Origin: Syntrophobotulus glycolicus DSM 8271
Lineage (GTDB): Bacteria; Bacillota; Desulfitobacteriia; Desulfitobacteriales; Syntrophobotulaceae
Direction of reading: 5' to 3'
Assembly (NCBI RefSeq): GCF_000190635.1
Contig: NC_015172.1
Location: 1,054,001 to 1,118,000, forward strand
Length of the DNA: 64,000 bases
Below are positions 16,282 through 24,480 of this stretch, one piece after another. Position numbers and translations under genes: made by a program. The notes under the pieces are model-generated. The model saw only the letters and a program-made list of their open reading frames with translations, was not told the DNA's origin and searched no databases. Positions within the stretch are counted from its first letter, which is position 1, and the number at the start of each line of letters is the position of its first letter.

Positions 16282-16345
16282 CACTACCGAGCGATAAGAG
16301 TAAACCTGTCCAAAGACAGGGACGCAAAGCTATAGGGTCTAGGTG
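16282..16345 (+). ncRNA. Cyclic di-GMP-I (GEMM-I) riboswitch aptamer
   Basis: The signature GACGCAAAGCTATAGGGTCT at 16321-16340 is the 3' half of GEMM-I. It is preceded by GTAAACCTGTCCAAAGACAGG, a small hairpin with the expected AAAG loop, and closed by CAC (16282) pairing with GTG (16343). GEMM-I aptamers bind c-di-GMP and control motility, surface or wall genes. Downstream only a 36-codon frame and a terminator follow, so the regulated gene seems lost or very small. Confidence 0.85.
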
Positions 16346-16453
16346 CTTACAGTTCAAAAGTCAGTTATTAACACTTTCGAATTAAACACTAAAGATTTCC
16401 AAGGGCAAAAGTTTTCAACTGTACAGATTGTAGACAGCCCCGGTTTTAAATAG
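16343..16453 (+). other. 36-codon open frame between riboswitch and terminator
   Basis: GTG 16343 opens a frame that reads VINTFELNTKDFQGQKFST then VQIVDSPGFK before TAG. The composition is protein-like, but there is no good ribosome site, the start lies in the aptamer closing stem, and the stop lies in the terminator. It may be a remnant of a deleted riboswitch-controlled gene or may not be translated. Confidence 0.25.
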
Positions 16454-19570: not shown

Positions 19571-20629
19571 TCACGCTTTCATTATATCATCCAAATCTAC
19601 TTGATAATACTTGCCTTCAAACATCAAAGTCCGGGTGCGTTTATCATAAACCATAAAGTTTTGCCCCCTATTTTCGGGAAAACCCTTTTGCAAAAGCTCG
19701 ATCCCATAAATATTTGCTTCCTCTTGGGGGACCCATTCCTCTAAAGCCTCTTTGATCCGTTTCACTCCTGCGGTATCCTGCTGGATTAAATTCTCAGACT
19801 TTAAGGAATTGACTAATATTTGAAAATCATCAGGACTTAAAGGACGCTTTTCCTGCACCTCATCTTCGCTATTCACTGTCGCGGCATTTACCACGCCGGC
19901 CTGATCATAATGATGAATATCAGCCGATTCCTCCAAAGCTTCTTCTAATAAATGCTCAAGCTTAGGATTACCATAGTAAGCGATTCTCTCTCCTGCAACA
20001 TGTTCTTCAAACATGCCCTGGGTATAGCTTAATAGTTTTGAATACCATTTACCGTCTGTCTCATAACGAATCCACATGGTTAAAGAGGACGCATCACTTT
20101 TTCGTTCTTCTCTGAGCGTTACTTCCTTTAATTCCATTTCCCGGATTCCTTTCCCGAAATCATCTAAAAAAGGCTCTGTAACAGAAATGGATTTCTCTAT
20201 ACCGCTTGCTGAGGATGAACCGGTAGCAAACATGATGGAATTGCCTTCCCTGCCTAATCCGATGTTAACTTCCGCAGGGGTCGTATCTTCTGCCTTGGTC
20301 ACCAAGCTTACAGCATGGACCCTAAAAATGCCTGCAATGATAAAGGGTGCTATGATCAGCAAAGCAACGGCGATGAAGTAGCTTTTTTTATAAAGTGTAA
20401 CGCTCCTTTTTTCTACTATAAGATTAAAGAATAGATAAGCAAGAATCGCCAAGATTACGGCTCCCATCATAGGTTCATAGATATCCGGAAGGTGGCGGTC
20501 GTTAATTGGCGGCAATATTTTTACCAGATGAGTTCGAATAAGACCCCGGAAGAGAGAAATACCCAAGTAATACCCCAAAAAACCTGCTCCCAATAAGGTG
20601 ATGATTTTATCTCGTAAAACTTTAGTCAT
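19571..20629 (-). CDS. Membrane protein of unknown function in an ECF sigma operon
   Basis: 352 residues. Three hydrophobic segments lie in the first 115 residues (LLGAGFLGYYLGISLF, MMGAVILAILAYLFFNLIV, YFIAVALLIIAPFIIAGIF), followed by a long hydrophilic domain, probably extracytoplasmic. No catalytic motif recognised. It overlaps the anti-sigma gene by eight bases and ends the operon. By position it probably senses or transmits the envelope signal, or is a target of the sigma factor; both are inference. Confidence 0.7.
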   Translation of the reverse strand: MTKVLRDKIITLLGAGFLGYYLGISLFRGLIRTHLVKILPPINDRHLPDIYEPMMGAVILAILAYLFFNLIVEKRSVTLYKKSYFIAVALLIIAPFIIAGIFRVHAVSLVTKAEDTTPAEVNIGLGREGNSIMFATGSSSASGIEKSISVTEPFLDDFGKGIREMELKEVTLREERKSDASSLTMWIRYETDGKWYSKLLSYTQGMFEEHVAGERIAYYGNPKLEHLLEEALEESADIHHYDQAGVVNAATVNSEDEVQEKRPLSPDDFQILVNSLKSENLIQQDTAGVKRIKEALEEWVPQEEANIYGIELLQKGFPENRGQNFMVYDKRTRTLMFEGKYYQVDLDDIMKA

Positions 20630-22485: not shown

Positions 22486-22581
22486 AGATATACCACCGTT
22501 TTCCTTAGTCCAGATAAACCGAAACGGGAGAATTTTAGTGGGTCCTTTGGTATGCAGCCCCTATTCTCCATAGATGATTGA
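22486..22581 (+). pseudogene. Scrap of a STAND-type gene, near-copy of part of 10573-14766
   Basis: Bases 22513-22542 match 12301-12330 of the STAND gene at 29 of 30 positions, in the same reading sense (DKPKRENFSG). The surrounding frame TTVFLSPDKPKRENFSGS, then FGMQPLFSIDD, diverges. The flanks are not similar, so this is a leftover of a paralogue or of a small copying event. It lies 9.7 kb from the intact gene. Confidence 0.6.
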
Positions 22582-22607
22582 CAAGCTGTTTCTTCTTATA
22601 GTAATAT
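22578..22607 (+). promoter_or_regulatory. Sigma-A promoter of the Mn riboswitch transcript
   Basis: TTGACA at 22578-22583, spacer of 18, TAATAT at 22602-22607. The predicted start is around 22614, just before the aptamer at 22621. Confidence 0.65.
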
Positions 22608-22620
22608 TATATGCATAGTT

Positions 22621-22710
22621 AAAGGGGAGTAGTTTTAATTACAAGGTCAACATGCACTGGGGAGATCATATCGAACCTGGCTTTGTAACCGAATTCGGTA
22701 ACGAGACTTT
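22621..22710 (+). ncRNA. yybP-ykoY (Mn2+) riboswitch aptamer
   Basis: The 5' strand AAAGGGGAGTAG (22621-22632) and 3' strand ACGAGACTTT (22701-22710) form the family P1. The internal block AACCTGGCTTTGTAACC and the closing CGGTAACGAGAC are the conserved yybP-ykoY core; ACAAGGTCAACATGCACTGG also fits. These riboswitches sense Mn2+ and turn on Mn exporters or related membrane proteins. Here the next gene is a zinc-ribbon protein followed by a kinase, which is unusual for the family. Confidence 0.85.
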
Positions 22711-22754
22711 TAACATAATCCATGATGGGGGTTATGTTAAAGGTCTTTTTATTT
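22705..22754 (+). terminator. Riboswitch expression-platform terminator
   Basis: GACTTTTAACATAA (22705-22718) pairs with TTATGTTAAAGGTC (22732-22745) over 14 bases with one G-U, followed by TTTTTATTT. The left arm includes the last six bases of the aptamer P1, so aptamer folding and termination are mutually exclusive, giving an ON switch with Mn2+. Confidence 0.85.
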
Positions 22755-22802
22755 ACCTTCACATAGCCCATCTATCATGAAATGAAAAAGAGGTGTAAAA
22801 CG

Positions 22803-23162
22803 ATGAGTTTTTTCTCAAGGTCGTCGAAAGGAAAGCATTATAAGAGAGGAAATCAGGGGAGTGACCACTACCAAAAGAAAGGATTTTTTGGGGATTTATT
22901 TAAGATGATTGCTTCGAGAAGCGGGTCTGGTGGTCATTACAATAATCATGGGAATCAATACCCCAATACGCCGGGGCAAAATCAACCCGTTGCAAGTGCA
23001 GTCATTTGCGGTAAATGTAACGCCCAAATTCCGGCAGGTTCAAAATTCTGCTTAGAATGTGGGGAAAAGGTTAGTGAATCATTGTTTTGCACAAACTGCG
23101 GAGAGAAATTACCTGCAAACGCAAAATTCTGTCTGAAGTGCGGCAATAAAGTAAACGGGTAG
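22803..23162 (+). CDS. Double zinc-ribbon protein
   Basis: 119 residues from ATG 22803, with AGAGGTG seven bases upstream. Residues 1-70 are basic and rich in Gly, Ser and His (SSKGKHYKRGNQGSDHYQKK, GSGGHYNNHGNQ), probably disordered. The C-terminus has two zinc ribbons: CGKCNAQIPAGSKFCLECG and CTNCGEKLPANAKFCLKCG (CxxC pairs). No membrane segment. It lies directly under the Mn2+ riboswitch and four bases before the kinase gene, so it is probably the kinase's partner, substrate or scaffold. Similar zinc-ribbon/kinase fusions exist in bacteria; here they are separate. Confidence 0.75.
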   Translation: MSFFSRSSKGKHYKRGNQGSDHYQKKGFFGDLFKMIASRSGSGGHYNNHGNQYPNTPGQNQPVASAVICGKCNAQIPAGSKFCLECGEKVSESLFCTNCGEKLPANAKFCLKCGNKVNG

Positions 23163-23166
23163 AACG

Positions 23167-23889
23167 ATGTGGTTATGGAGAGCAAAAAGATACTCCGGTA
23201 AACAACTCGATCAATACACCATTGAAAGACCCCTTGGTGAAGGCAGATATGCAACGTGTTTTCTTGCCAGGACAGGCAGTGGTAATGTCGTTGTCATCAA
23301 GAAGTTCAAACCAAGCATTTTGAAAAAGAATTCAAAGAAAAATATGTATGAGGCAATAATCCTATCAAAGCTCAAGGATAAAAGAGTCCCTGAGCTTTTA
23401 GGCGTGATCAATCAAAAAGGGTTCTATGGATTTATTTTGGAATTTAAGCATGGACATACCGTAAAAGACCTGCTTTTTAAAGATAAACATAAATTTACGA
23501 ATGAAGAATTTTATCATACAGGGAATCAGCTCATCAGAATTATTAGGTATCTTCATGAAAATGGTGTTGTGCACAGAGATATCAGAACACCTAATGTTTT
23601 GATGGATAACGGAGAGGTATATCTTATAGATTTTGGGCTGGCAAGATGGGCCGATCACAATCAATATCCGTATGATTTGGACTTTTCTTACTTAGGAGAT
23701 TTTCTATTATATTTACTTTATTCTTCCTATGAAAAAAGAGAAAAACATCAAAAATTGCCATGGCATAAAGAATTAGAGCTGACATGTGAACAAAGGTTGT
23801 TGTTGAAAAGGTTATTGGGTATTGAAGCAGGATATAAAAATATCTGCGACATCGAAACAGATTTTATCAACGCTTTTAAACCACAGTAA
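23167..23889 (+). CDS. Small Ser/Thr-type protein kinase
   Basis: 240 residues, all kinase domain. Gly loop LGEGRYATCFLA (about residue 23), catalytic Lys in VVVIKKF, HRD motif as VVHRDIRTPNVLM near 137, and DFG as LIDFGLARW near 155. The usual HRDxKxxN is HRDIRTPN, with Arg in place of Lys. The C-lobe is shortened. No transmembrane or PASTA part, so it differs from PrkC/Stk1. Co-transcribed with the zinc-ribbon gene under the Mn2+ riboswitch; kinases of this type use Mg2+ or Mn2+, which could explain the link. Substrate unknown. Confidence 0.85.
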   Translation: MWLWRAKRYSGKQLDQYTIERPLGEGRYATCFLARTGSGNVVVIKKFKPSILKKNSKKNMYEAIILSKLKDKRVPELLGVINQKGFYGFILEFKHGHTVKDLLFKDKHKFTNEEFYHTGNQLIRIIRYLHENGVVHRDIRTPNVLMDNGEVYLIDFGLARWADHNQYPYDLDFSYLGDFLLYLLYSSYEKREKHQKLPWHKELELTCEQRLLLKRLLGIEAGYKNICDIETDFINAFKPQ

Positions 23890-24192
23890 ATTTTTAATCA
23901 GGGGGAAAATCTTCTGTAATTGTAACCTTTAGGTAAGTGGAGATCAATTGCCTCCTCCTGAAGTCGGGGATATGATGAGCTTTTCTAGTAAATTTGGACA
24001 AGTCGTTAAACAATGCAACACAAAAATTAGAAATGGATTTAAACCGGGAACAGGAAAGAGAGGGTGAACCCTCAGAAAGCAAAATCCTGCTCATGTGAAT
24101 CCCCTTTCTTGTATATCATATTGGCAGAAGCTTTCCGGATGGAAGGAAAACCTGGTTTCGTGAAGAATTCCTTGGGAAAGGATGTGATAGCC
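23890..24192. other. Spacer of about 300 bases
   Basis: No gene I can support. Minus-strand frames near 23894-24094 contain a protein-like tail but show no start or family. No terminator with a T-tract was seen directly after the kinase. Confidence 0.4.
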
Positions 24193-24480
24193 ATGCTTGA
24201 TAAAAACGTATTTGAAAAGTTACAAGAATATAAACCGATCCTTGAAGAACGGTATTCTGTTGGGAAGATCGGTGTATTCGGGTCGTATGCGCGCAATGAG
24301 CAGAAAGAAGACAGTGATATTGATATTATTGTTGAATTTACCCGACCGGTAGGGTTTCAGTTCATCGACCTGAAACTGTATTTAGAGGAAATACTGGAGC
24401 GAAAAGTTGATCTGGTTACCCCTAATGCCCTTAAATCTCAGATTAGGGAGCAGGTACTGAAAGAGGTAACATCCCAATGA
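24193..24480 (+). CDS. MNT-type minimal nucleotidyltransferase antitoxin
   Basis: 95 residues from ATG 24193. The nucleotidyltransferase motif is KIGVFGSYARNEQKEDSDID followed by IIVEF (GSxxR...SDxD), with a further acidic position at KVDLVT. MntA antitoxins AMPylate the HEPN toxin HepT. The ATG lacks a strong ribosome site at normal distance (AAAGGA is 12 bases away), and the frame is open further upstream. The adjoining HEPN gene is reduced to a scrap, so this antitoxin is now alone. Confidence 0.8.
   Translation: MLDKNVFEKLQEYKPILEERYSVGKIGVFGSYARNEQKEDSDIDIIVEFTRPVGFQFIDLKLYLEEILERKVDLVTPNALKSQIREQVLKEVTSQ

Follow-up and report, generated by a model that had tools for sequence, protein, structure and literature searches.

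A Mn2+ riboswitch upstream of a partner-kinase gene pair in Syntrophobotulus glycolicus, with probable loss of an intervening exporter

The window analysed here is the whole stretch of 64,000 nucleotides from Syntrophobotulus glycolicus DSM 8271, and it contains a yybP-ykoY riboswitch followed by a small partner gene and a Hanks-type kinase gene. The most probable account is that this Mn2+ ON switch once belonged to an exporter operon and now feeds the partner-kinase pair, as part of a metal-excess phosphorylation response. The component parts, their order, the homologous arrangements in other genomes and the purifying selection on the genes were read directly from the sequences. In the proposed mechanism the 5' leader would act as a transcriptional Mn2+ ON riboswitch: binding of Mn2+ at high free concentration would stabilise P1, the overlapping terminator could then not form, and by this antitermination the polymerase would read into a two-gene unit. 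Expression of the small metal-binding partner and of the Hanks-type kinase would thus depend on the metal, and the kinase is predicted to be active on a protein target. The ancestral unit was probably composed of riboswitch, GDT1 exporter, partner and kinase, and a deletion between two AAATGAA repeats may have taken the exporter together with a promoter-like site. Because this deletion would have removed the exporter, the switch would now feed the partner-kinase pair alone, and Mn export is presumably carried out by other riboswitch-linked genes of the genome. As the kinase family is a recurrent passenger of Ni/Co or Mn riboswitch efflux operons, it probably serves in a phosphorylation response that is induced by an excess of metal.

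Exporters are the main targets known for activation by metal riboswitches. If a kinase family recurs behind two such classes that are unrelated to each other, a surplus of metal would set off a phosphorylation response as well, and the riboswitch-kinase link would provide a direct route to function, by way of metal induction and then the phosphorylated targets. A literature search returned no association of a kinase with Mn or NiCo riboswitches, and earlier mention in the primary NiCo or Mn riboswitch papers is possible; in one review the genes linked to such riboswitches are those of exporters and transporters (PMC7266159).

The riboswitch leader and its terminator

The features of the locus are as follows, L002 being the closest relative described below.

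22578..22607, + strand: sigma-70-like promoter TTGACA-18-TAATAT, 10/12 by consensus scan (consensus match only)
22616..22716, + strand: yybP-ykoY (Mn2+) riboswitch aptamer, found with the order-specific model R1
22618-22625 / 22707-22714, + strand: P1 of the aptamer
22624-22632, + strand: L1 GGGGAGUAG, intact
22646-22653, + strand: L3 GUCAACAU, intact
22703..22754, + strand: intrinsic terminator, 19-bp stem (22703-22747) followed by a T run, -24 kcal/mol, shuffle z = -7.3
22780..22786, + strand: AAATGAA, inferred deletion junction, the same 7-mer being present at L002 150-156 and 1123-1129
22787..22795, + strand: ribosome-binding site AAAGAGGTG of the zinc-ribbon gene, read from the sequence
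22803..23162, + strand: partner protein of 119 aa, Ser/His/Gly-rich N-terminal domain and double zinc ribbon (Pfam Zn_Ribbon_1, E 5e-15; DZR)
23167..23889, + strand: small Hanks-type Ser/Thr protein kinase of 240 aa (Pfam Pkinase, E 3e-26)

The aptamer was identified with R1, a covariance model constructed from an alignment of 20 other riboswitches of the window's order with the window left out. The R1 search of the window gave 22616-22716 (+) with 58.3 bits and E = 2.1e-13, which supports the conserved junction fold (P1, P2/P3, P4). The L1 and L3 loops are of the RF00080 type, and in the alignment L3 GUCAACAU is identical to the Rfam consensus at the same place. Two-sided changes were observed in 17 of the 27 pairs of the order alignment. 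Among the nucleotides invariant in the other 20 riboswitches a single one is changed in the window, where CC of P1 became CU and gives a G-U pair; P1 was still formed when the aptamer was folded by itself. The Infernal check with RF00080 proposed in the sequence-only reading gave a different picture from R1: the Rfam search at the gathering cut-off reported nothing at the window leader, and RF00080 reached 9 bits at 22612-22772, under the cut-off of 45 bits. This cut-off is uninformative for the window's order, because the search of 74 genomes of the order gave 23 RF00080 matches and every one lies under it, including those preceding TerC-like and GDT1 genes. Dismissal of the riboswitch on the Rfam gathering cut-off alone was rejected, since no yybP match of the order attains it.

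The whole 3' strand of P1 (22707-22714) falls within the 5' arm of the terminator, so the expression platform competes with P1. The two structures are thus predicted to be mutually exclusive, as in a Mn2+ ON switch; this overlap agrees with a published mechanism, where P1.1 is stabilised by Mn2+ so that the terminator is blocked (PMC6754395). In a scan of the + strand 3' of the terminator, the sole promoter-like match was at 22914 (9/12, chance level), and none convincing was found between terminator and genes. The terminator read-out of the riboswitch is so positioned that it would govern both the zinc-ribbon gene and the kinase gene. The sequence-only reading had described a yybP-ykoY aptamer with its own promoter and a terminator overlapping P1, upstream of a zinc-ribbon gene (22803) and a kinase gene (23167), and had asked whether the kinase has a promoter of its own after 22754. 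All of the proposed elements were recovered, the promoter as a consensus match and the two genes by Pfam, and the only match after 22754 is the chance-level one.

Of the five Mn riboswitches in the window's genome, the four outside this locus stand ahead of three TerC-like genes and one GDT1 exporter gene. Most of the checked Mn riboswitches of the order also precede TerC-like, GDT1-like or other membrane-protein genes (named by eye from sequence). The window copy shares with RF00080 riboswitches the L1 and L3 motifs and the P1-terminator competition, and its sister copies in the genome stand ahead of TerC-like and GDT1 genes; whereas the window copy itself lies ahead of a partner-kinase pair without an exporter and scores far under the Rfam cut-off.

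Several other riboswitch contexts were recorded. In the order, Mn riboswitches are followed directly by an HtpX-type membrane protease-like gene at L084, L089 and L090 (by eye). At L087, L088, L092 and L093 they precede the gene of an uncharacterised protein (MFGYVVANIDKLTAEEKLHYRSCYCGLC...), which is conserved across four genomes of a single genus. A PspA/IM30-like gene at L103 (by eye) has a Mn-riboswitch-like element about 400 bp upstream of it. The window also has a second R1 match at 20365-20454 (21.6 bits), within an opposite-strand gene, and a c-di-GMP-I riboswitch at 16289-16372 (39.9 bits, Rfam).

The kinase and its partner

The catalytic motifs of the kinase (VVIKK, HRDIRTPN and DFG) are intact. 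Its AlphaFold model has a kinase fold with a mean pLDDT of 90.6, and PDB kinases matched it with E about 1e-13; with the ATP-binding Lys, HRD, DFG and the fold it belongs to the Hanks-type kinases. The Pkinase fold and the intact VxIK, HRD and DFG are common to the bacterial Ser/Thr kinases of this type; whereas the window kinase has 240 aa and is without a sensor or membrane domain, and it apparently receives its input through the riboswitch of its mRNA. The PDB sequence and fold searches with the kinase returned generic kinases only. A defence function suggested by the best PADLOC/NCBIfam matches (MAD6, PD-T4-6) was rejected, as these are generic kinase-domain matches in the kinase part of longer profiles and far under the NCBIfam cut-off. 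A gene with a nucleotidyltransferase domain (NTP_transf_2) lies 3' of the kinase at window 24142-24480.

The partner and kinase genes are separated by 4 bp, and of the 18 loci compared 17 have a partner gene ahead of the kinase, the exception being L072. The Ser/His/Gly-rich N-terminal domain is common to the partner proteins. A zinc ribbon is present in 5 of the 17 partners (window, L002, L068, L076 and L077); it is dispensable in this family, because the other 12 are without it. Zinc ribbons paired with a kinase or phosphatase are also found in the 4-Cys prefix and zinc-ribbon-linked kinases/phosphatases (NF045510, NF011149); however, the ribbon is there part of one protein, whereas in the window it belongs to a separate protein, and the match is weak (25.5 bits). 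The kinase dN/dS was 0.12-0.33 across twelve pairs, with 0.17 between the window and L002, and the partner gave 0.20 for the latter comparison. These values show that kinase and partner have both been kept functional, though a large part of the divergence may be older than the loss of the exporter.

Metal riboswitches at the kinase loci

The kinase was sought in whole genomes, and about 5 kb on each side was read at 17 further loci. With L079 set aside (a distant kinase, 30% identical) and the window and L002 included, 18 loci were compared; searches around G158 and G162 added no further kinase members. A same-strand upstream metal riboswitch was found at 14 of the 18 loci (12 NiCo; 2 Mn, the window and L002), which are not 14 independent events because most come from one genus. 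Two of the twelve NiCo riboswitches, G054 (35.4 bits) and G052 (34.1 bits), are just below the 37-bit cut-off. The NiCo model R2 was trained on most NiCo sequences of the kinase loci, and only L072 and L067 are for this reason independent of it; the Rfam NiCo model supports the rest. No convincing riboswitch was seen at L067, L073, L074 and L078. A possible decayed NiCo remnant lies ahead of partner and kinase at L067 4500-4577 (14.8 bits, E 0.0067).

Among 20 other kinase loci of the same genomes, none had an Rfam match at the cut-off, and among 24 other kinase loci neither the Mn model nor the NiCo model gave a match (0/24 each); the control is narrower than the test, because the control loci carry about 1.5 kb on each side. 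The 74 genomes of the order yielded 41 NiCo matches, and 11 of these are at this kinase, which is present in 13 of the genomes. The sequence-only reading had looked to relatives for the order riboswitch, zinc ribbon and kinase. The association of kinase and metal riboswitch is retained in them; however, the order is interrupted by GDT1 in L002, and most of the partners have no zinc ribbon.

The fate of the exporter differed between the loci. It is kept at six (GDT1 at L002; CDF at L063, L068, L069 and L070; P-type ATPase at L077), a frameshifted CDF remains at L065, and no exporter is present at seven riboswitch-kinase loci (window, L064, L066, L071, L072, L075 and L076). Alignment to the intact operon placed the breakpoints differently at L064, L066, L071 and L075. 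In the kinase tree L064 lies beside L065, where the CDF remains, and L066 lies outside the pair, whose support is only 93/71; the deletions at L064 and L066 look independent because of this placement. Exporters of the CDF, P-type ATPase and GDT1 families have been repeatedly deleted or frameshifted while riboswitch and kinase stayed.

The five zinc-ribbon loci (window, L002, L068, L076 and L077) group in the kinase tree with support of 94/92. As three of this group are NiCo and the sisters window and L002 are Mn, the simpler reading would be that a Mn sensor has replaced a NiCo one. Compared with NiCo (czcD) riboswitch operons (RF02683), in which a metal riboswitch likewise stands before a CDF or P-type exporter, the window differs in the metal sensed and in the aptamer family, and the literature covered there mentions exporters, not kinases; whereas at the 12 NiCo loci of this study the last genes of the operon are the partner-kinase pair also seen in the window. 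A broader proposal, held tentatively, is that partner (Ser/His-rich, often without a zinc ribbon) and small soluble kinase might form a two-protein module that uses the metal riboswitch on its own mRNA as sensor and turns Ni/Co or Mn excess into protein phosphorylation. Such a module would swap riboswitch class and exporter between lineages; its retention after exporter loss might then mean that the kinase output, and not export alone, has been selected.

Several genes adjoin these loci. A small membrane gene that codes for a conserved short protein (LLLFSLMSVYMPHSLVE...) precedes the exporter in most NiCo loci (for example L063 1370-1861 and L068 7810-8178); its protein had no Pfam match, and one copy was also without an NCBIfam match. 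A second conserved kinase-like gene (MTWHIA.QELSKVKV...) is located 3' of the NiCo operon at L069 +1835, L070 +1836 and L130, and another copy in G054 is near a NiCo riboswitch, the small membrane gene and a CDF fragment. VTT-domain (DedA-like) genes adjoin the kinase loci L063, L065, L069, L070, L073, L074, L075 and L077 (Pfam for two, the rest by eye); in the window's own genome, one at L001 adjoins a TerC-like gene that has a Mn riboswitch.

Comparison with the closest relative and alternative readings

The closest relative, L002 (Bacillota SKS3.bin19), has a kinase 82% identical to that of the window, and its order is riboswitch, GDT1 divalent-cation antiporter (Pfam), promoter-like site, partner and kinase. 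It is the sole relative with the Mn form; its contig, from a metagenome-assembled genome, has low coverage and begins within the aptamer. The riboswitch of L002, terminator included, is 85% identical to that of the window, and R1 gave it 38.3 bits though it is clipped by the contig end. Just before the partner gene of L002 is the promoter-like site TTGACA-17-TATTGT with TG, which is missing in the window. The two AAATGAA copies of L002 bracket the exporter and this site; the window aligns on both sides of the gap and has one copy. This is best explained by a 973-bp deletion between 7-bp direct repeats, which would have removed exporter and promoter-like site from the window. The window is taken as the derived form because the exporter behind the riboswitch is absent there and present in L002, and since L002 keeps it, the riboswitch originally served an exporter. 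The locus would thus show a riboswitch passing from gene to gene by deletion of the intervening gene.

The sequence-only reading had proposed metal-dependent expression of a kinase with a metal-binding partner as a new output of the riboswitch family, unless an exporter lay directly behind the riboswitch in relatives and had been deleted here. Just this was found in one relative, so the arrangement did not originate as a free-standing new output; the tie between kinase and metal riboswitches does extend beyond the locus.

The present riboswitch-partner-kinase arrangement could also be a recent accident. The main rival explanation, rather unlikely in our judgement, regards it as a deletion scar: the riboswitch belonged to the lost exporter, its fusion to the pair is recent and functionless, and the pair is silent or depends on a weak internal promoter. 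The exporter of L002 and the loss in the window of the promoter-like site before the partner agree with such a scar, as does a GDT1 gene (73% identical) elsewhere in the window's genome, which is under its own Mn riboswitch with a terminator resembling that of the window; three TerC-like genes of this genome are under Mn riboswitches as well. Against a scar, kinase and partner remain open and under purifying selection, with dN/dS of 0.17 and 0.20 in the comparison with L002, though much of this divergence may be older than the deletion. The terminator is also intact, as is most of the aptamer core, and exporter loss with the riboswitch retained recurs at several Ni/Co loci.

It is improbable that the aptamer is a yybP variant sensing a divalent metal other than Mn2+, in which case the metal signal driving the kinase would differ. 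Such variants are thought likely (PMC7266159), and other kinases of the family are under Ni/Co riboswitches; whereas L1 and L3 are canonical here, and elsewhere in the order riboswitches of the same subtype precede GDT1 and TerC-like genes. Very improbable is the reverse order of events, an ancestral riboswitch-partner-kinase unit with the exporter inserted in L002 by a 7-bp target duplication: this would also give the repeat at both ends, and G052 has a riboswitch directly before the partner, but the extra L002 segment has no transposase or other mobile-element gene, riboswitch-GDT1 pairing is found elsewhere in the order (L082, L101 and L108), and the part that in L002 runs up to the ribosome-binding site of the exporter is retained in the window.

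Between the hexamers of the promoter-like site of L002 (1020-1048) lies a GTGAA-GCT-TTCAC palindrome, a possible operator.
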